From positions 1 to 24,977 of IMG/VR virus record IMGVR_UViG_3300029787_000305: DNA of 24,977 nt. One strand, given 5' to 3'. The translations under genes were made by a program, and so were the position numbers. The notes below the pieces were generated by a model that saw only the letters and a program-made list of their open reading frames with translations, was not told the origin of the DNA and made no database searches. Positions 2,852-20,720 of this stretch are shown one piece after another (the stretch's first letter is position 1; every line of letters starts with the position of its first letter). This DNA comes from a virus.

Positions 2852-5320
2852 TTAACTCGATCTCAAGGTGATTGTGGGGTCAGTGTCGTTTAAGTTTCCG
2901 TAATGGAAAGCCGCATCATTAATGGGAACACCTTTAAAGTTCCACATAACCGTGGGGTAAGTACACAGGCCCATTCTGGGGTTACCTAGGTAGCCTTGCC
3001 CTGCGGCGGTGCTGTATGGGTCTGTATTAGATGTTAGAACATCGGATACAGGGACCACGAAAGAACTGAATCTCCCACCGTCACGGGCTGCTACAGTAAC
3101 GCTTGCTGTAGTTTTCTTCTTCTTGGTTGAACTAGTGACAACAGTAGTTTGGTAGGGAGCAGGGAAGGTAGGAGTAGTTGCTGATTCAAGACCAGTTGTT
3201 GGTGTTGCAGCAAAGGCCACATAAATAGTAAATTCATCCCAACCTTTTTGTACCCAATGCCCCGTGTAAGACGCAGGATTAATTCCTTCTGCTTGCGCTC
3301 CCCTAAAGGTCTGAGGAAGACAATTTAAAAAGTCCACATCCACAGAATAATCAGCCAACCAAGTGGGGCGCTGGAATTTAATTTTCTTAGAGATGTAGTG
3401 AAAACTCACTTTCCAGCCTTGATTATTGTAGGTTCCTTCAAAAGTAGACAAAGTTGCGGGATCATTTCCAGCCTCGTTAGTGCCATCAGTTAAAGTTAAT
3501 TCCGAGTTACTCCCTGCCTGACTTCTATTACTGTTCCCAAAGAAAGTATTGATTCTGTCATTGGGATAGAGTCCTTTATTTTCAATGTCTTGTTGTATAC
3601 ACCACTGTGCTAAATCCCAATCAGGGTAGAAAGGAATTTGAACAGGAGCAGACTCACTAGCAAAAGCATAAGTGCTTCGAATATAAGATCTCAGTGCAGC
3701 AGGATCGCTTCCTAAAGTACCTTGATAGAAATTGTAGAGGGCTCCCTCTGGTCCAAAGTTGTAACCACCAAAGACATACCCTGTCGCTAGACTCATGGCA
3801 TTATTTTGAGCCAGAGAACCTGTACCACTCTCTAAGTTTTGAAGTCTAGGGTTCACCTCTTCGTAGAGTCTCCTTACTTCATAGTCTAGCTGGCCCTTAC
3901 CTACGGCAGGGTTAGCTAAAGACAACTGAGGAAAAGCTGCTGCAATTCCTGCTCTTTCGTTGTAGGCCAATTCCGCAGTTCTGAAGAAGGGGCGAATGTC
4001 CACAATATCATTGTCTGCAACAAGAGTAGATCCATTTTGAACCCACACATATGCAACAGGCATAATAGATTGTCCGACTAACTCGTATGCATTCTCTTCT
4101 AATTGCTCAGAGATGAGCGGTGCTAAGTTTAAGATATCATCGGGAGCGGGGAAGCTACCTCGAATGTCATACTCTATGTCATTCCCTGACGCAGCAGTGA
4201 AACCCATGTTGGAGTTGTTCTGATCTCCTGGAGAGGCCAGAATGCTTGGGGTATCTCCTGTAGTTTCAATATAATCCTTAGAGAAGTTACCTGTTTCTTG
4301 GAAATTAGCTTTAATCCCTGCTCCTCTGACGATACCTAACTGAGGCGTGGTAATTTTTTCTTTTCCTGAAGTCTTAAGAATATTTACTCCACTCATGTCC
4401 ACAGGCTTGCTGTAGATGAAGATCATATCGACTCTACTTTGGACACCTGCTACTGGAGTTTGCGCTCCATCAGAATTAGTATAGGAAAAATCATCAGGAT
4501 CAAAAGAAGGCACTTCTATAGTAAGCTCTGAAGGAATATCTACGATAGATAAACGGGAAACCCCTCTCCATCTTTTAATAAAGTAACTTTCTGTTCTAGG
4601 GAATTTAGCAAATCCGCTGTTGGGATTAGTGGTTTCAAAACTAGGTAGCAAGGTGGACCCTGCACTTGATCCCAAAGACTTGGCCCATAAAAGAGCCTGG
4701 GTTATAACCATTGGAGAGAAGTCTGAGCCTCCTCCTGTGATGTTTTTATCAGGTCCAGCGTAACCTAATTCGGTTGTGCCCTGCGTCACCTGTACACCTG
4801 TATTGTTGACAGGGGTATAGGGGTTGACTACAGGCCAAGTAAAGGCTCGTTCTGTAAGACCCGTCATACCTAGAGCGTCTTGAGAGAGAGTGCTTTTAAA
4901 CTGATCTAATGCAGCCTGAAGAGTGGCGTTTTTTCCACCTTTAAAACTTCCAGGATTAGGGAGGGCAGACTGCCAAGCATCCACATCACCAACCGCTGTT
5001 CCCATTACCCTTGCTAAATAGGCCAAAGCGGTCTTTTCCGAAGCATCATTAATTCTAGCAGTATATCTTCCTGGAAGAACTCTTACTACTCTGTCTCCTC
5101 CTGTTGCGTAGGGTCTAAGCTCATCAATATCGACTCGCTTGATACTTGTAAGTTGTGTCTCAGTAGCAAGCCTTACCTGATCTTTCAACCAATTGCAGTT
5201 TTCCTGTAGCTGCTTCAAGGGAATGTTATCTACCTCAAAGTAGTAAGGGTCATTAGCTTTAAAGAACCTAATAGGGTCTGTAAATCGGTAAGAACTTTCT
5301 TGATAAATTGTTTCAGCCAT
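2852..5320 (-). CDS. Tail-fibre/baseplate-attached structural protein with N-terminal DNxPL motif (822 aa)
   Basis: The ATG at 5320 follows directly on the TAA of the gene before it (TAAATG). Residues 26-49 contain D31-N-I-P-L35 followed by a leucine-spaced helix, closely matching residues 33-57 of the preceding 1210-aa protein, so both may dock to the same virion site. The middle (about 435-475) contains a D-I-R-P-F-F-R-T stretch followed by Y-N-E-R-A-G-I-A-A-A, then a short heptad-like segment (about 478-500) that could form a trimeric coiled coil. Near residue 733 is a run of four lysines between Ser/Thr residues, probably an exposed loop. No enzymatic motif is visible. Position downstream of the wedge genes and beside a beta-helix protein argues for a fibre, collar or decorating role. 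I do not recognise a named family; a baseplate structural protein that binds no receptor remains possible. Confidence 0.8.
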   Translation of the reverse strand: MAETIYQESSYRFTDPIRFFKANDPYYFEVDNIPLKQLQENCNWLKDQVRLATETQLTSIKRVDIDELRPYATGGDRVVRVLPGRYTARINDASEKTALAYLARVMGTAVGDVDAWQSALPNPGSFKGGKNATLQAALDQFKSTLSQDALGMTGLTERAFTWPVVNPYTPVNNTGVQVTQGTTELGYAGPDKNITGGGSDFSPMVITQALLWAKSLGSSAGSTLLPSFETTNPNSGFAKFPRTESYFIKRWRGVSRLSIVDIPSELTIEVPSFDPDDFSYTNSDGAQTPVAGVQSRVDMIFIYSKPVDMSGVNILKTSGKEKITTPQLGIVRGAGIKANFQETGNFSKDYIETTGDTPSILASPGDQNNSNMGFTAASGNDIEYDIRGSFPAPDDILNLAPLISEQLEENAYELVGQSIMPVAYVWVQNGSTLVADNDIVDIRPFFRTAELAYNERAGIAAAFPQLSLANPAVGKGQLDYEVRRLYEEVNPRLQNLESGTGSLAQNNAMSLATGYVFGGYNFGPEGALYNFYQGTLGSDPAALRSYIRSTYAFASESAPVQIPFYPDWDLAQWCIQQDIENKGLYPNDRINTFFGNSNRSQAGSNSELTLTDGTNEAGNDPATLSTFEGTYNNQGWKVSFHYISKKIKFQRPTWLADYSVDVDFLNCLPQTFRGAQAEGINPASYTGHWVQKGWDEFTIYVAFAATPTTGLESATTPTFPAPYQTTVVTSSTKKKKTTASVTVAARDGGRFSSFVVPVSDVLTSNTDPYSTAAGQGYLGNPRMGLCTYPTVMWNFKGVPINDAAFHYGNLNDTDPTITLRSS

Positions 5321-8300
5321 TTAATTATCTCTCTTCAAGTCGAATACACCAGCGGATTTAAATCCTAAAGTTCCTGAAAGGTCTCCTGTGTATGCTTCAG
5401 ATGCTCTACTGGTTTGGTTCCTAGAGCGGAACAATGTAACCTTTCTAGGTCTTCCTGAGTCTCCCAGACTTGCATTCTGCGCGTTAGCGAAAGTCTTTGC
5501 CGCCGACTCATCAAGCATACATTGTGTTGGGTTGCTTTCTACCATTTCCTGACAATAGTAGAATCCTGAAGTCCATAGTGCATCAGGACAACCATCATTA
5601 TTAGTGTCATAACTAAATTTAAGTAGATCAGGAGCTAAAGAACTAGCATTAACCTCTCCTGCGGGTACAAGACCAGACAGAGGAGCCGAACAGTTATACC
5701 CTTGTGAGAATATTTGGTAAGCAGGTCCCACAACACCAGAGAAGGCTCCCGCTCCATTTGGATTTGCTCCTTCAAAGTAACCACTGCAATCACTCTGTAA
5801 GAATCTTGCAGACCCTTTAGGTGTCCAGTAAATTCTAAACACTCCTTGATTATTAGAAGTGTTGTCATCTGCCCCGTACTGGTATGTGGTTGATCCACTC
5901 ACATTAATACCTGCTCCCACCAATGCAGACACCGTGGGAGTATTGAAGCCTTCTCCAAACATTAATCCTGTTGCCCCCGACACGGGGAAGAATTGGTTGA
6001 ATGGTACGTTTACACTAGTTCCTGATGGCGGCAGCCAGACCGAACTTCCCGCTCCAAATGTATCTAAAACACTCAATGCGCCTGTATCAGGCGTGAGCGC
6101 AGGGGCTCCGTAAGCGGGTATATTACCAGCAGGAGCAGCCACCGTGCCGTTATAGGAAGAACAGTATATTGCGCTAGGTCCATGGAATTGAGTATCTGCG
6201 GGATACATTCCACTAACAGAACAATAAGACGCATTTAGTCTTGAAGTGTCAGCAATATTCCAAATCATTAACTTGTCACAATCAGTTCCACTAGTAGTGT
6301 AGTAAGTTCCATCCATAGGACTATTATTAGCTCCAAATGGAAAGTGAACATTAATTGAATTAACAACGCTATCTTCTGTGGCGCGAATACATGTACCACC
6401 TTGAGTTGCCCATTGTCTACTTCCCGCTCCTGTTCCATACTTACCATCGGCAAATCCTCCAGTAATAATGAACTGAAGAAGAGAACCAGAATCAGTAAAG
6501 ATTGGGAAGTCGGGTATGGTTAAGTTTACTCCATTACTGTTTTCTAGATCTGCTAAGTGATAGGTAGTAATGGCACTAGAGTCTTGAGGATTGGGGAAGA
6601 ACTGCAAGGACCCAGAAACCAAGAGAGAACTAATGTTATATCCATCAATTCCAATAGGATAGTCTAGTCCGTCATCAATAAGCTCCAGCCCTGCGGTTGT
6701 TCTTTCCCACTGTTGCCCGTAAGCACCTAAGTCAGCTAAATTAATATTAGAATTCTTATTTGCCACCAAGCAAGCTCGGGTAGAGTGAAGCTCAACTGCT
6801 GTATGATGAAGAGGATTATCCAAATCAAAGGCACTAGCTTCCACACCGTAAGCATCTCTAACTCTCGGGGGTTGAATGTTGAGCGTAGAGTTGTTTTCCA
6901 CTAACCCATCAACGCCAAATTGGGCTACGACAGTAGGACCATGAAGGTTAATTTCTGATCCATTATCTCCATAAAGCCCTGCAACATATTTTTGATAAGT
7001 ATATCCTGCGGGACCCCAAACAAAGTTGCATCCACTTCCTGTGCCAAACAAGGAGGCTACAGAGTTGTTGGAAGCTTTAATCGCCATGCCGTAAGTAGGA
7101 ACTCCTGCAACCGTATCAGCGGGGACCCTACTCCTAATGTCTGCGTGGATAAGATTGAGAACAGAGTTATTATCCACAGAAATAGCAGGGAGGTTAGCTC
7201 TGTTTGTTCCTAAGTACTTTATAACTCCATGGCAACCACTAAATTGCATGTTGCCATATAAGTCTGGGATGTTATCTTTTCTAGCAAAGACAAAGGAGCT
7301 TTCATCTTCTAAGGCTAAATGTTGACCATTTCCTCTAAACTCCACCTGGTGTCGAGTATTCTGACCTGCATTGGTTGGAGAGTTTGGTGAATCAAAAACA
7401 AAGGTAGAATTCTTGCTTCTCAACGCCTGATTAGTATGGAAGCTTCCGCAAAGGTTTTCAAATTCTACCTGCGATCCTGTTGCCTCCACTCCCACATCGT
7501 TGCCATAAATATCCAGTAGTCCATTGAGACTAACCTGAGACTCATTTAATTGAAGACCAACATTTGTATTAACTTCACATGTAGTAATACCTCCTGAATC
7601 TTCGTCCGTTCTAAATAATTTAGCAAAACCTCCATGGAGTTTAGAGTTATCTAATTTAATTCCTATCGTATTTCTAGACGCAGCCACGATAACATCCTCT
7701 CCAGACGCTTGAAAATCTCCAGCGTAGGGATTAAATAGGTTGGATTGATTGGCGGTTCCTGACACTAAAGAACTGATAGAAACATCCGAATTTACGGCAT
7801 GGAAGCCAATCCCTTTGTCTGCGGCTCTCGTAGTAGTTGTTTCTAATTCATAGTTTCGATAAGAGAATGCAGATCTAGACAGAACAACTTTAGAGTTATT
7901 AAACTTAAATCCTGCTTCCCTACATCTAGCGGCAGCACAGTTTTCTAAAAGCACATCGGAATTAGTAACTTCAATACCTACATCTCTGCCTCCCCCAACT
8001 ACGGATTCTCCATTTACACAGAAGTTTCTGACAAATACAGGCCCATCACAATTTTTAATACTCAATTTGTCTAGCGTATTGAGGTATATTGATCCTCCTA
8101 CACGCGCTGCTCCTGTAGCAATAGGAGGTCTTTTGATAAAGTCTCCAGTGGCTTGATTTGTAGCTGAGAAATCAACACCGTGTAAGGTATCGTCATAAGA
8201 GGTAGTATTAGTATTCTCATACGGATCTAATTTAAATTTATCTAAAACTCCTGTAAGGAAAGTATTATTTTGTCCTAAACAAACACTTAAAGGAGCTTGG

Positions 8301-8953
8301 TCTAATGTTAATCTAGGATAAAGGAAGGAGTTAACCGAGGATACTCTTAGGTCACCAGCGCCACTAAGAACTCTAGTTTCGACATTTAATCCTGAGGTAC
8401 ATCCGTTATTTGCTAGACCTGAAAAGAGAGTAGAACTTACATCCTTAGAAGTAATTTCTTGGACCAAGGGGGTCATTTTGTTGTAGGTAGGAGCAGCTAC
8501 TACAGTGGTTATAGCCCCCGAAGCGGTATACACCTTGGTATAGGCTCTATTAATAATTTCAATAGAACCACCTTCTTCAATTCTAAAATTATGCAACTCT
8601 AGGGAACCTAGATCTCCAAAGTTACATACTTCAATAAGAACAGGAAATCTAACAACCTTCGGAACAGCAGCAATGCAAGAGCTAACTGTTGTAAATATGG
8701 TGTTATCCGCTGCTAGAGTAGCCGTAGGAGCCTCTGCGGAAACGGTAAGAGCCAGACCAGGAACCGCTGAAGTAGGAAAGCCAGCTTGCTCCCATAACTC
8801 ATAATCCCTTTCTTCTAGGTCGTATAATGGGAGATTGTCCTGCTCCCAGTTGTAGAAGCTGCTGGTATCATACTTGGACACATAGGGAGTCCAAGAGTTT
8901 TGCAGCATAACTGTGCCGCTAGAGGTGTATATGTCTTGTCTTTTGAATACCAT
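5321..8953 (-). CDS. Beta-helix tail spike/fibre protein (1210 aa)
   Basis: The ATG at 8953 overlaps the preceding TAA by one base (TAATG). Domains seen: an N-terminal adapter-like segment (33-57, D39-N-L-P-L43 then D-L-E-E-R), a linker, and about residues 290-910 a long ladder of short beta segments punctuated by N-S-x-[VLF] motifs (for example near 331, 436, 500, 595, 630, 668, 688, 734, 806), the pattern expected for a right-handed parallel beta-helix of the pectate-lyase/tailspike type. A C-terminal region has several Cys and a D-x-N-x-D-G-x-x-D loop (D1116, N1118, D1120, D1124) resembling thrombospondin-3 or dockerin calcium sites. Tailspikes with this fold bind or cleave surface polysaccharide, but I see no convincing catalytic Asp/Glu set, so enzymatic activity is not claimed. 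It may instead be a structural or adhesive fibre. Confidence 0.85.
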   Translation of the reverse strand: MVFKRQDIYTSSGTVMLQNSWTPYVSKYDTSSFYNWEQDNLPLYDLEERDYELWEQAGFPTSAVPGLALTVSAEAPTATLAADNTIFTTVSSCIAAVPKVVRFPVLIEVCNFGDLGSLELHNFRIEEGGSIEIINRAYTKVYTASGAITTVVAAPTYNKMTPLVQEITSKDVSSTLFSGLANNGCTSGLNVETRVLSGAGDLRVSSVNSFLYPRLTLDQAPLSVCLGQNNTFLTGVLDKFKLDPYENTNTTSYDDTLHGVDFSATNQATGDFIKRPPIATGAARVGGSIYLNTLDKLSIKNCDGPVFVRNFCVNGESVVGGGRDVGIEVTNSDVLLENCAAARCREAGFKFNNSKVVLSRSAFSYRNYELETTTTRAADKGIGFHAVNSDVSISSLVSGTANQSNLFNPYAGDFQASGEDVIVAASRNTIGIKLDNSKLHGGFAKLFRTDEDSGGITTCEVNTNVGLQLNESQVSLNGLLDIYGNDVGVEATGSQVEFENLCGSFHTNQALRSKNSTFVFDSPNSPTNAGQNTRHQVEFRGNGQHLALEDESSFVFARKDNIPDLYGNMQFSGCHGVIKYLGTNRANLPAISVDNNSVLNLIHADIRSRVPADTVAGVPTYGMAIKASNNSVASLFGTGSGCNFVWGPAGYTYQKYVAGLYGDNGSEINLHGPTVVAQFGVDGLVENNSTLNIQPPRVRDAYGVEASAFDLDNPLHHTAVELHSTRACLVANKNSNINLADLGAYGQQWERTTAGLELIDDGLDYPIGIDGYNISSLLVSGSLQFFPNPQDSSAITTYHLADLENSNGVNLTIPDFPIFTDSGSLLQFIITGGFADGKYGTGAGSRQWATQGGTCIRATEDSVVNSINVHFPFGANNSPMDGTYYTTSGTDCDKLMIWNIADTSRLNASYCSVSGMYPADTQFHGPSAIYCSSYNGTVAAPAGNIPAYGAPALTPDTGALSVLDTFGAGSSVWLPPSGTSVNVPFNQFFPVSGATGLMFGEGFNTPTVSALVGAGINVSGSTTYQYGADDNTSNNQGVFRIYWTPKGSARFLQSDCSGYFEGANPNGAGAFSGVVGPAYQIFSQGYNCSAPLSGLVPAGEVNASSLAPDLLKFSYDTNNDGCPDALWTSGFYYCQEMVESNPTQCMLDESAAKTFANAQNASLGDSGRPRKVTLFRSRNQTSRASEAYTGDLSGTLGFKSAGVFDLKRDN
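5577..5608 (-). other. Calcium-loop-like motif D-x-N-x-D-G-x-x-D
   Basis: Codons from D1116 to about residue 1126 of the 1210-aa protein read DTNNDGCPDAL. The spacing of D1116, N1118, D1120, G1121 and D1124 fits the calcium-binding loops of thrombospondin type 3 and dockerin repeats. Only one copy is present, and binding is inferred from spacing alone. Confidence 0.5.
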
Positions 8954-9561
8954 TAGAAATTAAGTGTCCATCTAAAAATTAAACTAAAATCATTAGTTTT
9001 TCTAATATTACTGAAAGTTCGATAAGCAACTAAGATTGATCTATTAGTTCCTGTATTGCCCGTAGGGTTCTTCATTAGTAACCCAATCTCATTAATATTC
9101 ATATCGTTACTGTCCCGTGTTAGGCCATTGCAAGCTTCCTCATCCACAACCAACGTATAGCGAACAGAGGCATCATCTATTCTTGTAATCTTATTTGCAG
9201 GAATCAAAGCGAAGAATTGATTAGCAACGATGTTAACCCCACTTAACTGTGAAGCATCTTCAATAAAGAGATTACTTCCCGTGCCATACTCGCTAACGGA
9301 ATTTAATGCTCCTGAGAGCCCTTGGATTGCACTAGTAACGCCTCCAGCGGGAGGTCCTGATACTCCGATCTGGAACCTATCAATCTGGTAGTCTAAAACA
9401 CTGGTCGATCCAGACCCATTAAACATGTAGGATAATCCCACTCCCATACCAGAAACAATAATGTTGTGGTCATCAAATACAACTTCTTCCTCACCATTGG
9501 GAAATTGTTTGATAATGGTAAGGTGTCCTGTAATTCCGATATCGTCTGTAAAATTTTTCAT
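8953..9561 (-). CDS. Small tail-fibre/adapter-like structural protein (202 aa)
   Basis: The longest frame begins at a GTG (9579), but I prefer the ATG at 9561: it forms a 4-base ATGA overlap with the stop of the preceding gene, as elsewhere in this cluster, and a GGAG lies 12 bases upstream. Residues 10-65 (G-H-L-T-I, then D-H-N-I-I-V-S-G, then Y-Q-I-D-R-F-Q-I-G) and 155-201 (I-N-E-I-G-L-L, then L-V-A-Y-R-T-F, ending F-R-W-T-L-N-F) resemble the two ends of the 670-aa protein encoded just before it. The I-x-E-x-G-L ... W-T-x-x-F arrangement is also familiar from the N-terminal attachment domains of phage tail fibres. It therefore looks like the bare scaffold of that family, perhaps a fibre base or adapter binding the baseplate wedge. 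There are no catalytic motifs. A fibre chaperone is a less likely alternative. Confidence 0.78.
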   Translation of the reverse strand: MKNFTDDIGITGHLTIIKQFPNGEEEVVFDDHNIIVSGMGVGLSYMFNGSGSTSVLDYQIDRFQIGVSGPPAGGVTSAIQGLSGALNSVSEYGTGSNLFIEDASQLSGVNIVANQFFALIPANKITRIDDASVRYTLVVDEEACNGLTRDSNDMNINEIGLLMKNPTGNTGTNRSILVAYRTFSNIRKTNDFSLIFRWTLNF

Positions 9562-11570
9562 GTAAAGTGTATTCTCCACTTAATTGTTAGGTCAGAGTAA
9601 TTCATAGCACCTGCTGCGGTCCCATTATCTTCAATAAAACCTAAGTTTTTTGTAAGGTGTTTCGTAGCAAATAGTTTATATTTCCTAGGATTATCTAGGG
9701 GTCCAAACGAATATGGTGGACTATTTCCTGCAAGACGAGAGGCTTCCGTGTCAATAGTCCACAGACCCATATTATATATACCACCGTAAAGGTTAGAATA
9801 ACCCACATCTCCTGACCCTAACAGCATAGAATATTCTACAATTCCAGAATTAGTACTATCGGCTCCCCCTGAGACACATAAGCCACTAGCGGTAGAACTC
9901 ATAGCATACCCTGTCGTAGTTCCTGGCGACCCAGACATTACCATATTAACAAACCCAGACACATCCATCGAGCTTGCTTCGTTTACGATACTATTGTAAG
10001 TTCCATGAACATAATAAGGGCTCGAACTTGCGTCAGCTAACCCCAGATAGGCAGCAGAATTATCTAAGGAACTCACAAGAGCAAAGGTGGAACCTCCTGT
10101 GCTTGATCCTTCGGGATAGCATCCAAGGTAGTAGGCTTGGGGTCCGAAAGAATCAAACCCACTTAACTGCTTCTCATAGTAGTTATTAGCGTAATTATTA
10201 AATAGACCAGGGAGAGTGTTCCCCTTAAATACATTATGAGGTACTAACCTCTGTGATCCTGCCACATTAGCCAATCCATTAGGGCCTCCAGGGTTCTTTC
10301 TATACGGGATAACATTTAAGTTTTGTCCCATATTAAAGTTGTCTAGAATATCAGAAGAGGTATCTAATAATGCAGTATCTCCATCCTCCACTCTCGTACT
10401 ATCGGGATTGGGAGGACTTGAGAGATAGTTGGTGGGAACATAAGAGCTAGTTCCATATGGTGGAATTACCCTAACAGTTCCATTGTCAGTGGGGAACCCT
10501 GGGACATGATCTCTATTTAACACAGAGCCTGAGAGGTCCCAATTGTTTATAACCCGACTATGTGCAAAATCAAGATCAGTAGGCCACCTTCCTGATTCTA
10601 ATTGCCAACCATATCCGTAAGTCCCTCCTTGGGTTTCTCCATCACTCTCCCATCCAATAGCATAAAGCCCTACATTGATGCCACTCACACCCGAAACAGG
10701 AGCCAAACCAGCAGTCCAGACTCGATACCAACCGTCACCCACTGGTATGGCTCCACCGTTCTGTTGCCAGTTATCAATGGAATAACCACTAACCTCTGCT
10801 CTGGCATTTCCGTGCTCTCTTGCGTTGGAGTATCCTAAAGAGATAGCACTAATTTCTCCCAACGGTGCAGTAGGTACGGCTCCTAAATCATTAAAATAAG
10901 AGGCAGTATTAAGCCTACTAAAGCCTAAGTTTCCTCTACTATTTTCGGTTCCGTCTGGATTATACCCTTCCCCATATATACTCATGCCAAAACTAACATT
11001 GGGGTGTCTATTGGTTGTTGCGGTGTCTCTAATGGGGACGAGATTATCTTGATCCACAGGATGCTTTATATACACGGAAGCGCAAAACCAATTATCTTGT
11101 CCCCCACTAATAGTAAAGTCTGTAGTATCATAAGTTACATATATTTTTTGTTGAAGGACGGAATTGGTATCATCATTTTTATCTTCTAGAGATAATACAT
11201 GAGCAATAGAAGAGGGCACAGTGGCATACTCAGGAGGAGGAGTAATGTCTGGTCTAGAGGAGACTATTAGCTCATTAGTAAAGCTGATGGCTTGTGAGTC
11301 ACTTGATGATGGGGTGGAATCATAGAAAAAGTTTCTTCGATAGGGAAGAGCATGAGCATTAAACTGATAAGCAGATGCGTCCTTACCGAAAGAGATAGCT
11401 TGGATAGTATAATTAGAAGTATCTAATAAAGCAGAAGCACTAGGAATTCCTGACAAGGAGGGAGATACCGTAAGCATATCTACAATAGCTTCACCAGCCC
11501 CATTCACAAGAAGATTACTTTCCTTGTGAATTAGCTTATCACCTTCCCAAATTTCTACTTCGCCTCTCAT
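9558..11570 (-). CDS. Tail-fibre protein with inserted carbohydrate-binding-like domain (670 aa)
   Basis: ATG at 11570 directly follows TAA (TAAATG); a GGAG lies 12 bases upstream. The N-terminus (residues 2-62: E-V-E-I-W-E-G, then S-N-L-L-V-N-G-A-G, then Y-T-I-Q-A-I-S-F-G) and C-terminus (595-669: I-Y-N-M-G-L-W, then K-L-F-A-T, ending L-T-I-K-W-R-I-H-F) resemble the smaller 202-aa neighbour. Between them lie about 500 residues absent from that neighbour. Residues about 155-385 (N-W-F-C-A-S-V-Y-I-K, G-D-G-W-Y-R-V-W, Y-G-Y-G-W-Q-L-E-S-G, S-S-Y-V-P-T) follow the pattern of concanavalin/CBM-type jelly rolls common in phage fibres, where the last two motifs usually read W-G-x-Q-L-E and S-Y-I-P-T. 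Inferred role: a baseplate-attached fibre that binds host surface glycans. Attachment is presumed through the shared scaffold. Confidence 0.82.
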   Translation of the reverse strand: MRGEVEIWEGDKLIHKESNLLVNGAGEAIVDMLTVSPSLSGIPSASALLDTSNYTIQAISFGKDASAYQFNAHALPYRRNFFYDSTPSSSDSQAISFTNELIVSSRPDITPPPEYATVPSSIAHVLSLEDKNDDTNSVLQQKIYVTYDTTDFTISGGQDNWFCASVYIKHPVDQDNLVPIRDTATTNRHPNVSFGMSIYGEGYNPDGTENSRGNLGFSRLNTASYFNDLGAVPTAPLGEISAISLGYSNAREHGNARAEVSGYSIDNWQQNGGAIPVGDGWYRVWTAGLAPVSGVSGINVGLYAIGWESDGETQGGTYGYGWQLESGRWPTDLDFAHSRVINNWDLSGSVLNRDHVPGFPTDNGTVRVIPPYGTSSYVPTNYLSSPPNPDSTRVEDGDTALLDTSSDILDNFNMGQNLNVIPYRKNPGGPNGLANVAGSQRLVPHNVFKGNTLPGLFNNYANNYYEKQLSGFDSFGPQAYYLGCYPEGSSTGGSTFALVSSLDNSAAYLGLADASSSPYYVHGTYNSIVNEASSMDVSGFVNMVMSGSPGTTTGYAMSSTASGLCVSGGADSTNSGIVEYSMLLGSGDVGYSNLYGGIYNMGLWTIDTEASRLAGNSPPYSFGPLDNPRKYKLFATKHLTKNLGFIEDNGTAAGAMNYSDLTIKWRIHFT
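9574..9577 (-). promoter_or_regulatory. Ribosome-binding site (GGAG) supporting the ATG at 9561
   Basis: On the minus strand GGAG lies 12 bases before the ATG at 9561. The alternative GTG at 9579 has no purine-rich sequence ahead of it. The spacing is long, so the ATGA overlap and re-initiation probably matter as much as this site. Confidence 0.4.
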
Positions 11571-14500
11571 TTAATTATCTAGCTCCACACTCTCAAAGTT
11601 ATTAAAGTTTGCCTGAGTGTTCCCAGTATTAGTGGTTCCCCACGAAGGACTCAAGCGATAGTTCAATCTACTGCCCCCACTTAGTTCCATAATTTCAGAG
11701 GTAATTACAGCATCTCTTGATGCAAGGCTAGTAGAATAAACTCCTGCGTCCTGTCCTATCAATCCATTATAGAACTTTAATGTATTCTGAAGTTGATCTT
11801 TTGTAAGATAAAGCTTATCTTCCTTAACAAATCTTCTGTTAGGAATACCGCTTGTCTCTATTCCATGGCCTGTTCCGATAGCTGCATTCTCTCTCTGGGT
11901 CACATCCTGTAACTCAATCGAATCAATTAGAAGATATTTCTGAGAGTTAGGGTTGGGAATGAAGAACAACTCCACAATGTAGTTGGTGCTATCCTGATTT
12001 ACCTGATTGGTAATCTTATAGACATCTTCAGGTATAGGAATGATATCTAAATACTCGGAGTTGTTGTGTATGGTAAAGTTTCTAGTATCAAAATCAATTT
12101 CAAATGTCTCAAAATTATTGTTATTAATATTTAAAAGAGTGTTATCATTTATGGTTCCCTCTTTCTGCGATATAACATTATTTAAACATACGGTTCCTTG
12201 GTTGTTTGTAGAAACAGCGTCATATGTCTTAAAGGTATAACGCTGAGACAAACTAAGAACTTTAGGTATCGAGATATCTTCTTCTTTAACATGCTCCCAT
12301 TTATTATTTGAAGTCCAGGACCAAATAATACCATCTCTAGGCTGCGTGTGAATCCAAGCTCCAATTCTTCCACCCCCCATCAAGTAACTGCTTTCCTCTC
12401 CTACGAGAGCTTTAACTTTTAAGTTAAACTTATGATCTTTTATAAAGTAGTTTCTTCTATCACCATAAGAAGATAAATCAAATCTCATCCTAGGCAAGCC
12501 CCCTAAAGCCTTACACTTGATTACTGTATTCTCAATCAAGGTGTTATCCATTCCAGGAACTGAGTTGCTCGCATCTAGTTTGAAAATAGTAAATTGATTT
12601 GCACTAGGGGCTCCAGAGATATCGGTAAATTCAATGCCACTAAGGATTGCGGGATTCCTGTAATCTGCATTATTAGGATTGCCAGAAACAAAAGTCCCCG
12701 ACAGAGGAATAACTGATTCTCCTGTGCTACTTGCTATAAAGGTTCCATTGGCTGTAGCGTTCCAGACATTGGTGGTGTTGATAGCACTTGCGCTATCTAT
12801 GGTAGGAGCCACCATATCGCCAACCGCTGATCCATCTATATCAAAATCACAGTTAAACAGCCCTTTACCAAAGACCTGAGCAAAGATATTGCCACCAGTC
12901 TTATCGACCTCATTTAAACCCAGAGGACTTCCAAAATATTTACAATGATCAGCCCAGGTCTTATGAACTCCCGTTCCAAAGCTAAAGTTAATGTAATCAT
13001 CATAGGAGTTAAGCACTAAACCACTCGCTATCGACTCATTAGCGGTGCTTAATAACTGATTTTTCCAATAGGCATTCGTTTGATAAGCCGAAGAATCAAA
13101 GTCGGTGTTCTGGGAAGCAGAATCAAAAGCTTTTTGTTCAAACAGTTGATGCATTGTATTGTAGATAAGAGGCAATTGCCCACGGTCTACATAACGATCC
13201 GTTGAACTGGTTCCAAAATAATTGGAGTTAAGACTACTTAATCCTCGGAAAGGGAAAGTTTGACTCGTAACAACCCCTGAGAACTCTCTGCTAGACTCAA
13301 GATTCTCACAGCTATGCCACACGCCCGATGGATTGACAGGATCGACCACAGGGAAGAACTTACCAGCAGACGCAACGTAACCCAACGTAAGCTCTCCAAG
13401 GGAGGAGGGCATGGAAGACTCGTAAGTAGAGGGATCGTAGCTCACAGGGCCATTGAAGCCCGTCCTATCGTAGTATCCTTCCTTGGGGAGCAAGTAACGA
13501 AGATTTCTCCTCCTCAAGGCTCTTCTGCCTACGTTGGCAAGAGGCGCGGCAGTCGTAGAGGAAAGCAGCGTATCGGTAATCTTGTCAACCTGATCCCTGT
13601 GGAAAGTATTGAGGCCACCTCTTCCGTCCTCGTCACCAGGAGACACAGTTCCCATGGAAACCCCACTGTATTCAAAGTTTCCTAGGATGGAGGCTGAAGT
13701 ATAGGACTCTCTAGTTCCGTCATGATCTAAGCCTAGATACAAAAACTTAGTGCTGGAAGCATCGTAATCATCTGAAGCACTTGCATTTAAGTTAACCCTT
13801 GGTATCGCATGACCAGGAGCAAATTCTCTAGCAACTCTACTCGCCTCATATAGAGCATTTTTTCCATCTGCTTCCAAGGTGTCTTGTGAGAAATCAAAAT
13901 CTCCGCTATTAAAATCAATAAACAGGTGCGAAGATTTACCGTTCCACAAATCGAGTAAGTTCTTCTCGTAATCCGAAATACTCAACATAACATCATCGAA
14001 GTTAGGTGGAGTCTGTACAGAGCTAAAGAACATCAACATCTCATTAAGAGATCCCAGGTTGGTGTCGGTAGTAATACCCTCGTTTAAAATAAAGTCTTTA
14101 ACCTGTGTTACAAAGGATTCCTTTACCTGGAAACACGAAAGTTTCTCGCCTAATAGCTCTACAATTTGAGGGGAAAGATTGCTATCCTTGTAGTATTTTA
14201 CTTCTTCAAAAGGAGGCAAAGGATAATTTACTTTATCTCTGTAGCTAAACAGGAACTCCATGTCTCCTGTAGCAGACAAGAAGTGGGGAACTTCCCCTAG
14301 AGCGTAATTAGGATGATCTAAGCCTTGCATATAGACTCCAGAACCTAATGGACCTAAGGATATAGCTGAATCCCATGCAAGTTTGTGCCCATTACGATAT
14401 GCTTCTCTTCTAGCAGTCTCATACCCTGGCTGAGTAATGATATGTGCGTGAAAGGGGAGCATCCTAGGCTCGCCAACAAGAGTGTAAATCCCGTCTAGTT

Positions 14501-15980
14501 GACCAAGCTCAGTTAAGTTGAACAGGCGTGGAACAGGAAACCTTTCTCCTCTAAATATAAAGCTATCAGGGAAAGCTTTGTAGAGTTCAAGCATAATGTA
14601 ATCTACTACATTATGAATATTAGCCTCTAGGCTGCTTGTGTTGTAGGCGTCCACTCCTGCTTCCTGAGCCAAGCCGAACGACCAAGTTTTAAGTGATTTA
14701 AATAGGGGAGATTCTGTTCCCAATGAATACCAGATTAAGTAAGGAACATAGGATTCCCATAGCTCGCTGGTAGCAGCGGAGACATCGAGGACACTATCAG
14801 TGATAAGGAGGTTGATCGCAGTCTGAATAGCCTCCATGGTTCCTGATCTCTTATACAGGTCGATTGCTTGCCTGAGTTGGTGTCTCCATTTGTCAGCGGA
14901 AACTCCTCTTAACTTCCATCCGATCAACTCTGCGATGTATTGCAGGTTTTCATCTTTAGCATTTTCTATGTCATAGATTAGACCTAAGTTGTCCACCTCA
15001 TTAGATATATCAGCAAACTCAAAACCAAGTAAGTTTGAAAACTTTCTAAACGGTCCTTTAGATACCCTGTCAGTAAGCTCTACGGACGCATCTATGTAAC
15101 TTTGAAAAGCATCTTTAACCGTGTAATCCTGTTGGTCGATAAAGAGCGGAGAATAAACTACATCTACTAAAGTTTGTAAATTCTCTAGGAGTTGGGTTCC
15201 ACTAGTGTATACAGGGAGTGCTCCCGCGCTGGTTTCAGTTCTAGCGTCTGCTGCTCCCGAAACAAAATCAGTAGGGATAAGACTCAAGGAGCCAAAGGTA
15301 GAACACGTTTCGTAATTTCTCCAAATATACTCCACGAACCCTTTAACTCCATCGACTGTTACTAGCTCGTTTCCTGTGTATAAAGTATTGAATGAACTGA
15401 GAACATAGCTTGAGGGAGAATAATCCAGACCCCCATCAGCAGAAGTGTTTAAGAAGTAAAACCAACCTAGAGCGTCTACCAGATAGTTATGAATACTACT
15501 GGGCTCTGTGCTATTGTTTAGAGCAGAGAGAGTGCCTATGTTATGCAGAGGACTTCCTTTCTCGGACCCCGTGGCTGGAATGATAGACGGCAGCAGGGTT
15601 CCTGAGAGATAGTCATTGAACTCTCCACTCGTATCGAAGTTTGCAAACGTAGTTCCTAGAGGCAGTAGGATTTTTTGCTCTAGAATAAACGGGTTAATCT
15701 TTGTTAGATTATTCTGCTTAACAAAGTATTGAGATATGCCTGATATATTTCCTAGGCTAGAGGTTTGCGAATTTGCTACACCTGAGATTGAAAGCACCTC
15801 GGAGATATTGGCAGCCCCTCGGATGTGTGAGTTGATCACCTGGGAGAGCGGGTTGATCTCTGTGCCGCTGAGGTCTAAGTCCTCCTGCTGGTACACCTTC
15901 GGAGTGATTAATTCTACAGCGTCTACATAATTGCTTTTGTAGTATTTTCTAGGATTAGGAGTGTACCGATTGTCTTGCAT
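11571..15980 (-). CDS. gpI/gp7-like baseplate wedge protein with large C-terminal extension (1469 aa)
   Basis: Starts in a TAATG overlap with the gp6/gpJ-like gene, the order J then I found in P2-type phages (T4 gp6 then gp7). Residues about 325-400 carry the P2 gpI signature: aspartate/leucine-rich helices, a W-K-L-R-G segment and Y376-K-R-S-G-T381 followed by an Ala/Ile-rich helix. In P2 this protein is under 200 aa, and T4 gp7 is 1032 aa, so this version is very long. The region beyond about 560 is not recognisable, except that residues about 1190-1360 look like a jelly roll (G-A-W-I-H-T at 1207-1212, W-S-W nearby), suggesting a carbohydrate- or protein-binding module. Role: with the gp6-like protein it should form the wedge core that triggers sheath contraction and carries fibres. 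The gpI assignment is fairly secure; the role of the extension is inference. Confidence 0.85.
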   Translation of the reverse strand: MQDNRYTPNPRKYYKSNYVDAVELITPKVYQQEDLDLSGTEINPLSQVINSHIRGAANISEVLSISGVANSQTSSLGNISGISQYFVKQNNLTKINPFILEQKILLPLGTTFANFDTSGEFNDYLSGTLLPSIIPATGSEKGSPLHNIGTLSALNNSTEPSSIHNYLVDALGWFYFLNTSADGGLDYSPSSYVLSSFNTLYTGNELVTVDGVKGFVEYIWRNYETCSTFGSLSLIPTDFVSGAADARTETSAGALPVYTSGTQLLENLQTLVDVVYSPLFIDQQDYTVKDAFQSYIDASVELTDRVSKGPFRKFSNLLGFEFADISNEVDNLGLIYDIENAKDENLQYIAELIGWKLRGVSADKWRHQLRQAIDLYKRSGTMEAIQTAINLLITDSVLDVSAATSELWESYVPYLIWYSLGTESPLFKSLKTWSFGLAQEAGVDAYNTSSLEANIHNVVDYIMLELYKAFPDSFIFRGERFPVPRLFNLTELGQLDGIYTLVGEPRMLPFHAHIITQPGYETARREAYRNGHKLAWDSAISLGPLGSGVYMQGLDHPNYALGEVPHFLSATGDMEFLFSYRDKVNYPLPPFEEVKYYKDSNLSPQIVELLGEKLSCFQVKESFVTQVKDFILNEGITTDTNLGSLNEMLMFFSSVQTPPNFDDVMLSISDYEKNLLDLWNGKSSHLFIDFNSGDFDFSQDTLEADGKNALYEASRVAREFAPGHAIPRVNLNASASDDYDASSTKFLYLGLDHDGTRESYTSASILGNFEYSGVSMGTVSPGDEDGRGGLNTFHRDQVDKITDTLLSSTTAAPLANVGRRALRRRNLRYLLPKEGYYDRTGFNGPVSYDPSTYESSMPSSLGELTLGYVASAGKFFPVVDPVNPSGVWHSCENLESSREFSGVVTSQTFPFRGLSSLNSNYFGTSSTDRYVDRGQLPLIYNTMHQLFEQKAFDSASQNTDFDSSAYQTNAYWKNQLLSTANESIASGLVLNSYDDYINFSFGTGVHKTWADHCKYFGSPLGLNEVDKTGGNIFAQVFGKGLFNCDFDIDGSAVGDMVAPTIDSASAINTTNVWNATANGTFIASSTGESVIPLSGTFVSGNPNNADYRNPAILSGIEFTDISGAPSANQFTIFKLDASNSVPGMDNTLIENTVIKCKALGGLPRMRFDLSSYGDRRNYFIKDHKFNLKVKALVGEESSYLMGGGRIGAWIHTQPRDGIIWSWTSNNKWEHVKEEDISIPKVLSLSQRYTFKTYDAVSTNNQGTVCLNNVISQKEGTINDNTLLNINNNNFETFEIDFDTRNFTIHNNSEYLDIIPIPEDVYKITNQVNQDSTNYIVELFFIPNPNSQKYLLIDSIELQDVTQRENAAIGTGHGIETSGIPNRRFVKEDKLYLTKDQLQNTLKFYNGLIGQDAGVYSTSLASRDAVITSEIMELSGGSRLNYRLSPSWGTTNTGNTQANFNNFESVELDN

Positions 15981-17560: not shown

Positions 17561-18024
17561 GATAATTTTACCTCAACATCGAATACTTCGAAATCTCCAC
17601 TTGTCAATTCTAAATCTAAAGCAATCTTTAAGGAGTTGCCCCCTGAAGGACCAATATCTCCTAAAGGAATAACTTTAATCTTGGTGATAGTCGCTCCCAC
17701 TATGTAGCTATAAAAGGAACTAGTTATCTCTCTTTTGATTGCTTCAAAAGTAAGCTCATCAAGAGGTTGAAAAAGGAAGCGTCTAAGGTTAGTCCCGTAT
17801 CCTGGAAGCATCACTCTCTCGCTCCTGTCAGTGAGCAGCAACTGTTTGACAGCATCCTTAATCATATCCACTCCTGAGTTCTTGGAAAAGAATCCTCCTG
17901 TGGTCTTGCGGCTACCTAAAGGAAATTTCAAACCAAATAGATGGTTTCTCTGTGCCGTGGGCACTTGCTCCATATAGTTAGGGATGGTTTTCCCGTATAC
18001 ATTTACTGTCTGATTAGCGGCCAT
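17557..18024 (-). CDS. Baseplate wedge protein, GPW/gp25 family (155 aa)
   Basis: ATG at 18024 overlaps the TAA of the preceding gene (TAATG), with AGGA four bases upstream. Residues about 34-155 fit the gp25/gpW fold: F-P-L-G (34-37), a helix I-K-D-A-V-K-Q-L-L-L-T (55-65), E-R-V-M-L-P-G-Y-G-T (69-78), L-R-R-F-L-F-Q-P-L (80-88), the helix E-A-I-K-R-E-I (94-100), and final strands ending D-V-E-V-K-L. The E-R-V-x-x-x-x-x-G segment is the family hallmark. T4 gp25, P2 gpW and T6SS TssE share this fold and clamp the gp6-type dimer to the sheath. It is about 20 residues longer than T4 gp25, mainly at the N-terminus. The family assignment is secure. Confidence 0.93.
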   Translation of the reverse strand: MAANQTVNVYGKTIPNYMEQVPTAQRNHLFGLKFPLGSRKTTGGFFSKNSGVDMIKDAVKQLLLTDRSERVMLPGYGTNLRRFLFQPLDELTFEAIKREITSSFYSYIVGATITKIKVIPLGDIGPSGGNSLKIALDLELTSGDFEVFDVEVKLS

Positions 18025-20720
18025 TACATCCTAATATTTTTGAAGAAGCCTTTTTGAGCTTTGTAGTTAGTAGTTACTTCACTACTATCTAGGGGCTTAG
18101 AGTAAAACTTTAGGCTTCCTAGATGTCCGCGCAACCCACTAGTAATTCCACCTCGGTCCCCACCCAGGAAGTTCCCGTGCTGGTACATGCCATCAGTGTA
18201 CCCTCCTCCCACAATCCAAGGAGTGTAGAAGGTATTTAGTTTCGGACCAGTCTTAAGTGTGGTGGGACCATCAACAGTGGTGGAGGAATACTCAAAACTA
18301 TTGTCCTTCTTGAAGGAAGGCAGGTTAATTGTTTGCGTAGCGTCTACTCCAAAAGCAGTCGAAATAGCAGAGGTGGCTATTAAAGATCCATCCGCATAGA
18401 ATTTTATCTCATTATTTGGAGGGTCAACCGTAACATCTACTAATACAAATTGTGAGGAGACATCTCCAAATGTAGTGGAGGATAAATCCACTTTCATATT
18501 GTAAAAGGCAGTTGAGTTTTGACACTCTACGTCATTGATAAACGAAGCAGACGAAGCGTCTCGGGCTTGAGTTGGAGCGATAAAGAAACTTAGAGAAGAT
18601 ACAGGGTCATTATCATAATTGGCATTACTGTATCCCTGCCCCTGGTGAGTAATTCGTCGATCTCGGGTAAAGCCACATACCATCCCTCTCACGAAAGAAT
18701 CTCCTCGGTCGTTCTCTAGGGCATCTAAGTCTCGGAAGGCTCCTGTATGGTCCAAAGCCGATGCACCTTCTTTTACACCTACATTGTCTGAGCTAATAAT
18801 TGCCTTCGTTAAGGACGAGGCAGTAGAACTAAGCCATCCTAATTCTCCATTTACAATGTTAGGCACATGAACCCAGCATTCCATGGTAAAGCCACTTGGC
18901 GAATAAGTTAGGTCGTTGAACTCTGGAGTAGCGGGGAGCTTAAAGTAAGAGCCTAACGCTGACGCTGCTGCCGTATCACTAGATTTGTTTTCCACAATCC
19001 CCTCTAAGTAAGGAATTCCTAGTCCTGAGAAGAAGACTTCAGACTTTGCAGGTCCCACTAGCTGACCATTATTGTACATGTCTTCAGTAGCGCAGTTTGT
19101 GGTGGGAAAATCAATGGAGGATGGCAACTCCAACGTGGTCTCCAAGAAATTATAAATGGCAAAGAGACGGTCTGTAGCTATCTCATCGGTTAAGGACAAC
19201 ACGGTTCCTGAGAGAGTGCCTGACGGAGAGTATAAAATTGACCCTTTTCCAATTGTCGGTACATTTAAGTGATCAACAGACATGGACTCGGGCCTAGCAG
19301 CCGTAGCTACAAACTTAGGTTGAATGGGAAGTACAATTCCTCCCACTTCAGCTTGCTCAAAAACTAGAGCTTTTTGTTTTTCCAGATCCACTCCGAGGTT
19401 ATATTCCTCTAAGTAAGAGAAATCATTAATAGGAACATCTCCAGGAGCGAATGCAGGTGCGCTATCCTCTCCATAAATCTGTGGAGCCTTAACAGAAACC
19501 TCGATCTGCTTCTTTCTTCGGTTGATTTTGCTGTTGTGCAGTGCAATATCAGAGATAATCAGTTGTCTTTGGTTCTTAGTGATGGAAGAATCAGTACCGA
19601 ACTCTCCAATATACCTTTGAAGATCTCCTGAAAGATCAAAAACATGCTTATCTCTCTGCTGTATGAGGGTAGCTAGAAAATGATCTGCGTCATAGTACTG
19701 TTGTAAGGCTAAACTATCGTCTACCAAGTCTAAATCAAAGATGTTATCGGTATACTTATTCAAAGACCGCATGGAAATGGCCTGTCCCTTACCACCTAGG
19801 TTGGGATCATAGTCATAAGTCCACGCATCCCCTACAGGTACAATGCCTGAGATAGCTAAGTAGACAGGATCCAAGCCTCCAGACTGTGAATCATAATAAA
19901 GTCCGTCACTTGTTAGAACATAATGACCTGCTTCGGAGATAGGAGGCCCATAAGTGAGACGGAATACATCTTCTTGTTCTAAACCAGGGTCCACTGCGGG
20001 GCATCTTGTGAATGTAGTGTCGCTGAGGAACGGATCTAGCTCTGAGGAGTCTAGGAAGCAAGGCTCCAACGAAGGATCTCCCGCTCTAGAGGCAACAATC
20101 TCATTAATTGTTTCAATTTGAGCGTCACATCTAGTCACAAAATCAAGAGTCCTTTGAAGTTTTGCTTTATCAGAAGCGTAAGTAGTATTAATTAGATTCT
20201 CGGCATCTTCAGAAGATAGTGTTGCCTTTTTATCTGCTGAATTACCAGCTTGATAGGACTGAACTAGGGCGTACTTATCTAAACAATCAATAACACTTTC
20301 AATCTGATCTCCGATACTCTGAATATTCTGGTATACTTGGGCGGCAAAGGAAGCTCCATACTGCAAAGCTCCCAAGGCTCCTGTTAAATTATCCAGTGCT
20401 TGAGATGCGTCATTGTCAATCTCATTCCAGCCCTTGCCAAAGAACTTTATCGTGCCTGATTCTGTTACAAACTCTATAAGACCAGAATCTCTTGTCAACT
20501 TAGCAAAGACTTCTTTCATCTTATCGTTGGCTGCGTTCTTTCCTTCGGCAATTTTATCGCTCATGTCCCCTAAGACATCGCTTGGTAGAAGGTTAAGAGC
20601 CGCAGAGGCTAAGTTTAACATACAGCTAGGAACGCCATAGGACATACCTATTGCTTGGAAAACTCCTGTCCCTGTTTCCCCTTGTACTTTTAAGAATGTT
20701 TCTAAATCAAATGATGCCAT
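18024..20720 (-). CDS. Baseplate-associated protein with helical N-terminus and LamG/concanavalin-like C-terminus (898 aa)
   Basis: ATG at 20720 has a strong AAGAGGA upstream. Residues 1-210 are mainly Ala/Leu-rich helix (for example around 25-50 and 110-150), with no clear signal peptide. Around 345-415 is a charged, Gln/Lys-rich segment that could be coiled coil. From S609-G-F-T-M-E-C-W-V-H to about 885 the sequence follows a LamG/concanavalin-like jelly roll: a conserved-looking start, F-Y-A-D-G-S-L-I in the middle, and G-H-L-G-S-L-K-F-Y-S-K-P-L near the end. I do not recognise the N-terminal part. The gene lies between the spike and gp25 genes, so a hub or inner-baseplate role is likely. 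A glycan-binding jelly roll at this position is unusual: it may act as a binding module, as an assembly interface or as a fibre on the hub. Name and function remain open. Confidence 0.82.
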   Translation of the reverse strand: MASFDLETFLKVQGETGTGVFQAIGMSYGVPSCMLNLASAALNLLPSDVLGDMSDKIAEGKNAANDKMKEVFAKLTRDSGLIEFVTESGTIKFFGKGWNEIDNDASQALDNLTGALGALQYGASFAAQVYQNIQSIGDQIESVIDCLDKYALVQSYQAGNSADKKATLSSEDAENLINTTYASDKAKLQRTLDFVTRCDAQIETINEIVASRAGDPSLEPCFLDSSELDPFLSDTTFTRCPAVDPGLEQEDVFRLTYGPPISEAGHYVLTSDGLYYDSQSGGLDPVYLAISGIVPVGDAWTYDYDPNLGGKGQAISMRSLNKYTDNIFDLDLVDDSLALQQYYDADHFLATLIQQRDKHVFDLSGDLQRYIGEFGTDSSITKNQRQLIISDIALHNSKINRRKKQIEVSVKAPQIYGEDSAPAFAPGDVPINDFSYLEEYNLGVDLEKQKALVFEQAEVGGIVLPIQPKFVATAARPESMSVDHLNVPTIGKGSILYSPSGTLSGTVLSLTDEIATDRLFAIYNFLETTLELPSSIDFPTTNCATEDMYNNGQLVGPAKSEVFFSGLGIPYLEGIVENKSSDTAAASALGSYFKLPATPEFNDLTYSPSGFTMECWVHVPNIVNGELGWLSSTASSLTKAIISSDNVGVKEGASALDHTGAFRDLDALENDRGDSFVRGMVCGFTRDRRITHQGQGYSNANYDNDPVSSLSFFIAPTQARDASSASFINDVECQNSTAFYNMKVDLSSTTFGDVSSQFVLVDVTVDPPNNEIKFYADGSLIATSAISTAFGVDATQTINLPSFKKDNSFEYSSTTVDGPTTLKTGPKLNTFYTPWIVGGGYTDGMYQHGNFLGGDRGGITSGLRGHLGSLKFYSKPLDSSEVTTNYKAQKGFFKNIRM
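18029..18032 (-). promoter_or_regulatory. Ribosome-binding site (AGGA) for the gp25-like gene
   Basis: AGGA sits four bases before the ATG at 18024, inside the last codons of the preceding 898-aa gene. The short spacing and the TAATG overlap suggest translational coupling. Confidence 0.4.

Follow-up and report, generated by a model that had tools for sequence, protein, structure and literature searches.

An internal insertion site for a jelly-roll module in a likely tail anchor protein of an uncultured contractile-tailed phage, next to its bare tandem paralogue

Organization of the locus

The IMG/VR record IMGVR_UViG_3300029787_000305 is a viral contig of 24,977 bases, referred to here as the window, for which no DNA-level similarity to any cultured phage has been found. 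Its minus strand carries a contractile-tail operon, in which a 155-aa gp25-type and a 526-aa gp6/BaseplateJ-type wedge protein, both recognised by PHROG profiles, are followed by proteins of 1469, 670, 202, 1210, 822 and 950 aa. The 670-aa and 202-aa products (hereafter the large and the small protein) are the subject of this work: their ORFs lie where the original prediction had placed them, at 9558-11570 and 8953-9561, and the stop codon of the large gene and the start codon of the small one overlap in an ATGA (9558-9561), which makes them tightly coupled genes.

Along the large protein, the N-terminal half of a putative anchor domain (residues 1-65; 11376-11570) is followed by a cassette with a jelly-roll, carbohydrate-binding module (CBM)-like fold (residues 78-361; 10488-11339), by a diverged middle of about 210 residues common to all large homologues (residues 362-572; 9855-10487), and by the rest of the anchor domain, its C-terminal half (residues 573-670 including the stop codon; 9558-9854). 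The small protein is the anchor domain without insert.

The upstream neighbour, of 1469 aa (11571-15980), is weakly Tail_P2_I-like, as a gpI-type baseplate subunit would be (phrog_6277, E 8.8e-4; Tail_P2_I, E 0.025, under the cut-off). Downstream, the 1210-aa gene (5321-8953) lies next to the small gene, an arrangement conserved in relatives; its product has no family match in PHROG and Pfam scans and is a candidate fibre or spike. By eye, an N-terminal motif is common to the 1210-aa protein and the 822-aa protein (2852-5320), FYNWEQDNLPLYDLEERDYELWEQ in the former and YYFEVDNIPLKQLQENCNWLKDQ in the latter, and may perhaps be a common docking segment.

The small protein and its likely role as an anchor

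The small protein matches phrog_5417 (E 9.6e-7, residues 23-202 to profile positions 23-156 of 156), as do all 59 aligned small proteins. This family is of unknown function in the database, and its profile leaves the large paralogues unrecognised except for one member (E 0.046). The AlphaFold2 model of the small protein has a pLDDT of 92.5, and the VIA fold search with it placed phage tail parts in all of the first five ranks (Z 9.1 to 5.5), unrelated rows scoring 4.5 and below: the best match was phiKZ gp139 (Z 9.1, rmsd 3.4 over 153 residues), followed, after the two phiKZ matches (Z 9.1 and 8.3), by three more phage baseplate, arm or connector parts. Among the BFVD fold matches, some are annotated as tail fibre. 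A plain Foldseek search of the PDB gave no match at E <= 0.001, a profile search of PDB sequences revealed no phage relative, and the Pfam tail-collar fibre families (P2-type fibre N-terminal domain) had no match in the 59 members.

The likeness to gp139 and the outer baseplate periphery of phiKZ (9xpg and 9xqd) extends over about 150 residues and also to the genomic setting, since genes for tail structure are found close to phiKZ gene 139, as they are to the small gene. However, no sequence homology was detected (12-13% identity), and the solved gp139 chain is longer, with 265 residues; the literature searched gave no paper on the role of gp139. In cultured Vibrio and Pseudomonas phages the small-type gene is located after wedge-region genes and before a long gene, which in a Pseudomonas phage is annotated as tail fibre. 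Because of this gene order, the phiKZ-baseplate-like fold and the enzyme-like C-terminal fusions on a third paralogue described below, the role of phrog_5417 is likely that of an anchor.

The middle of the large protein

The original prediction had seen in the large protein a single insert of roughly 500 residues. In fact the middle consists of two layers, which differ in their distribution among homologues. The large family comprises 118 homologues, and the insert state was counted on the 100 complete ones: compact forms of 300-430 aa account for 92 of these, five measure 600-730 aa and three exceed 1,100 aa. When compact and long forms are aligned, residues 362-572 of the window protein align to the compact middle and residues 78-361 have no counterpart. 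Thus, the supposed insert is not one module, as some 210 of its residues occur in every large homologue, and its mobile part is confined to residues 78-361. The expectation of a jelly-roll-like module lying inside the large protein, between the two domain halves, was borne out, and the module is separable, since insert-free relatives exist.

The cassette is absent from 92 of the 100 complete homologues, including the nearest relative by scaffold (L092:6509-7564, 86% identity), a compact protein of 352 aa as against 670 aa in the window. Blastn comparison of these two genes gives a DNA identity of about 78% up to codon 64 and of 86% from codon 521, and between these flanks a block that differs (residues about 64-521; 10009-11379), encoding 457 aa in 1,370 bases in the window and 139 aa in 417 bases in the relative. 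A centre that differs as a whole between conserved flanks indicates block exchange and not clean excision. Moreover, the insert state changes at least four to five times on the scaffold tree.

Different modules occupy the same site. In one homologue (L065:6048-7988) a kelch propeller (PF24681, E 2.4e-35) stands where the jelly roll would be; its several repeats fall within about residues 67-360, with the anchor ends on either side, and the literature searched gave no paper on kelch propellers in tail fibres. Three further proteins (L001, L003 and L004) carry a jelly roll there together with another jelly-roll-like segment, and one more such segment lies at a different site; these extra segments, read as jelly rolls from sequence motifs and weak at the HMM level, may tentatively be counted as such. 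All full-length cassette homologues found are located in the socket of large proteins, and partial ones occur in other proteins.

Fold and possible function of the cassette

Neither the large protein nor the window cassette had an informative match in PHROG and Pfam scans; six other cassettes match phrog_5939, annotated as 'tail protein'. In cultured phages, tblastn found no match for the large protein and, for the cassette, nothing better than matches at E about 1 or more. The predicted fold of the cassette is a jelly roll over about residues 81-330, whose matches also filled the results of the VIA search with the whole large model. The best match is residues 206-385 of a Pa193 baseplate chain (9b45_1; Z 11.2, 16% identity), together with an E217 baseplate chain (8env_K; Z 9.6). 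From their length and the published descriptions, these chains are taken to be Pa193 gp46 and E217 gp45, the fibre-holding subunits of the triplex (PMC11042391, PMC10329688).

Since a baseplate chain heads the matches, a structural role has to be reckoned with: the jelly roll could be, for example, a spacer or fibre clamp like the domain in the Pbunavirus wedge subunit and bind no glycan, and these top matches to fibre-holding subunits speak in its favour. We nevertheless regard it as rather unlikely. The jelly roll most like the window cassette, found in the Pa193 and E217 chains, belongs there to a wedge subunit, unlike the optional cassette of the anchor protein; absence from most homologues, and exchange for a kelch propeller as seen in one lineage, would be odd for an essential structural part. 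Furthermore, tailspike domains (K2-2 TSP, Z 9.7; CBA120, Z 8.6), CBM16, CBM22 and CBM61 (Z about 7), and CBM and lectin domains in general (about 7-8) match as well, and several of the solved fold relatives bind glycans. The glycan-binding module originally proposed is supported as far as a CBM-like fold inside the large protein is concerned; glycan binding itself is a prediction from the fold, the best match of which is a baseplate chain.

Homology between the ends of the two proteins

Direct BLASTP of the large against the small protein revealed nothing beyond chance, so that the resemblance first noticed by eye required profiles to be assessed. Families were built from IMG/VR relatives, and the wider profiles included 112 proteins of the small domain and 93 large proteins without insert. 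The profile-profile comparison proposed beforehand, of the ends of the large protein with the 202-aa protein, gave a match at both ends: small residues 10-69 with large 1-65 (Prob 95.6, P 1.1e-8), and small residues about 126-202 with large about 573-669 (Prob 70, P 4.1e-5; none of 300 column shuffles equally good). When halves that do not correspond were paired (N with C, or an end with the middle), the P values were 0.02-0.7. The register is the one seen by eye, pairing HNIIVSG/SNLLVNG and YQIDRFQIG/YTIQAISFG at the N-ends and INEIGLL/IYNMGLW, LVAYR/LFATK and LIFRWTLNF/LTIKWRIHF at the C-ends. In addition, an HMMER model of the small family matched the first 45 residues or so in 21 of the 118 large proteins (i-E <= 0.01, best 2e-5), with no matches among reversed sequences, shuffled sequences or 1,644 background ORFs.

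The predicted structures agree with this alignment. The model of the large protein is of low overall quality (pLDDT 60.5), with ends mostly at 70-92 (about 70-91 for residues 1-65 and mostly 80-92 for the C-terminal half), and seven secondary-structure elements of the two separate AlphaFold2 models coincide in the aligned register within a few residues. For small and large, respectively, these are E25-32/E12-18, H38-47/H23-34 and E60-66/E56-62 at the N-ends, and E132-139/E577-584, E156-163/E600-606, E174-186/E631-638 and E193-201/E661-668 at the C-ends. The differing loop lies in the small protein between E60-66 and E125-129 and contains one hairpin (99-119), and in the large protein it spans about 500 residues. 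From the alignment and the matching secondary structure, the two ends of the large protein would pack into one domain. A simple covariation analysis, with too few sequences, showed no enrichment of N-C pairs, with 5 where chance predicts 14.6 and 3 where it predicts 7.3; one covarying pair (small 41-176, compact 25-316) occupies nearly the same place in both families, which could be chance.

These results support the view that the large and small proteins are tandem paralogues of one domain; fold and context fit the anchoring of fibres or adhesins, and the packing of the ends is a prediction. Two further details of the original prediction need correction: the middle, which does lack a close counterpart, extends over about 66-572 and not 65-590, and the small protein, which shares both ends, has about 57 residues between them instead of none.

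It is rather improbable, and more so than a structural jelly roll, that the N-terminal segment (docking hairpin and helix) alone is homologous, the likeness of the C-ends being a convergent beta-strand ending of a kind common in phage tail proteins. With smaller profiles (59 and 55 members) the N-ends still matched (P 3.6e-6, and 7.3e-6 using the columns of the first sequence alone) and the C-ends were much weaker (P 0.0027, 1 of 150 shuffles equally good), and the HMMER model left the C-end unmatched in all 118 large proteins. Against this, the wider profiles align about 70 C-terminal columns in one register with the significance given above, and the four C-terminal strands coincide in both models. 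Phage tail genes swap ends freely, and the cultured relatives examined have a single small-type gene each, but that unrelated tail proteins each gained the same docking domain by recombination, with no duplication, is very improbable, given that both ends match in order, that the genes adjoin in nearly all relatives and that further tandem copies of the small gene are found in 20 of the loci retrieved, some of which come from contigs that overlap.

Further paralogues with C-terminal domains

In related contigs an extra small-type copy sits before the bare one, and several such copies carry C-terminal domains: an alpha/beta-hydrolase-like domain, under the curated cut-off, in L260 and L262, and a sulfatase (PF00884, E 2.1e-27) in L261. 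For a tail domain fused to enzymes, the most plausible role is that of an anchor. The original prediction had set the internal insert apart from the usual C-terminal fusion, which holds for the large protein and not for the small-protein paralogue of related phages.

In L261 (7143-11714) and L267 (7158-11705) anchor, alpha/beta-hydrolase-like region and sulfatase form a tail protein of 1,515-1,523 aa, and the anchor-sulfatase fusion suggests a phage enzyme directed against a sulfated polysaccharide. Two more anchor paralogues, L021:5175-7943 and L030:5793-7964, have C-terminal extensions of about 700 and 500 aa, respectively, in which Pfam recognised no family; by eye, that of L021 shows a GFGVGGG motif as in alpha/beta-hydrolases.

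Comparison with evolved Dit proteins

The closest known parallel considered here is the evolved distal tail protein (evoDit) of lactococcal, streptococcal and Lactobacillus siphophages, the N- and C-terminal regions of which align to the insert-free classical form, while one or two internal modules with a CBM fold are inserted in loops of the peripheral beta domain and have been shown to enable phage adsorption to exopolysaccharide-bearing hosts (PMC10688798, PMC7291167). In the same way, insert-free (L092) and insert-bearing (window) forms with aligning ends exist here, and the predicted fold of the insert is CBM-like (Z about 7 with CBM16/22/61, 7-10 with tailspike and lectin domains). Since internal CBM insertion is known from evolved Dit, the principle itself is not new.

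The systems differ, however, in several respects. The window scaffold is a phrog_5417-like anchor and not recognised as Dit, a protein composed of a belt and a galectin-like domain: no Dit family appeared in the Pfam and PHROG scans, and the scaffold fold matches are other tail parts. Its neighbours are gp25-/gp6-type contractile wedge proteins instead of the Dit-Tal context of siphophages, and in the window group a bare paralogue lies in tandem, a kelch propeller can take the place of the jelly roll, and a further paralogue bears enzyme-like fusions. All these features, from the scaffold and the contractile tail to the bare copy, the kelch module and the enzyme fusions, appear to be new. They extend the evolved-Dit principle from siphophages of Gram-positive hosts to another scaffold in contractile-tailed phages.

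Proposed origin and role of the insertion site

The explanation that we favour, and consider probable, is that the anchor was duplicated and that in one of the copies an internal loop became a socket for host-binding modules that can be exchanged. Both proteins would be built on one small beta-rich anchor domain, located in the outer baseplate with the gpI-type wedge subunit on one side and the fibres on the other. After duplication of the anchor gene, the downstream copy (202 aa) would have remained bare, and in the upstream copy the loop between strand 56-62 and the C-terminal sheet would have expanded, first by the middle of about 200 residues retained in all homologues and then, in some lineages, by exchangeable modules; the position in the virion and the order of these steps are those that we infer. 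Here the jelly roll (78-361) would be displayed from the anchor, most likely binding surface polysaccharide and raising adsorption, and modules would be gained, lost and swapped through recombination in the conserved flanks.

A broader reading, for which the chances seem to us slightly short of even, is that the duplicated anchor evolved two docking modes in adjoining genes: in one copy a loop inside the fold would receive exchangeable binding modules (a jelly roll, a kelch propeller or nothing), and in another polysaccharide-attacking enzymes (esterase-like, sulfatase-like) would be attached C-terminally, the bare copy being retained as the structural fibre link.

For the favoured explanation of duplication and socket, the tail anchor has a natural insertion site that accepts no module, one jelly roll, several, or a propeller, and that has the appearance of a plug-in point for parts used in host recognition. 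As insert-free and insert-bearing sister proteins exist, the host-recognition role of internal modules becomes testable in uncultured large phages. Counting against it, 22 of the 100 complete large homologues (L049, L051, L065, L077 and 18 others) begin at the equivalent of residue 20, without the first beta-hairpin; on reading the upstream sequence, there was no sign that the missing hairpin had moved to the C-terminus of the upstream gene.

Other observations

Distant relatives such as Vibrio phages allow a guess at a marine habitat for this phage. In the related contig L244 every tail gene is split into short ORFs, probably by sequencing frameshifts. Finally, an 898-aa protein encoded before the wedge genes (18024-20720) has a weak C-terminal match to Laminin_G_3 (concanavalin-like; E 0.0031, under the cut-off), which is possibly a further binding module.
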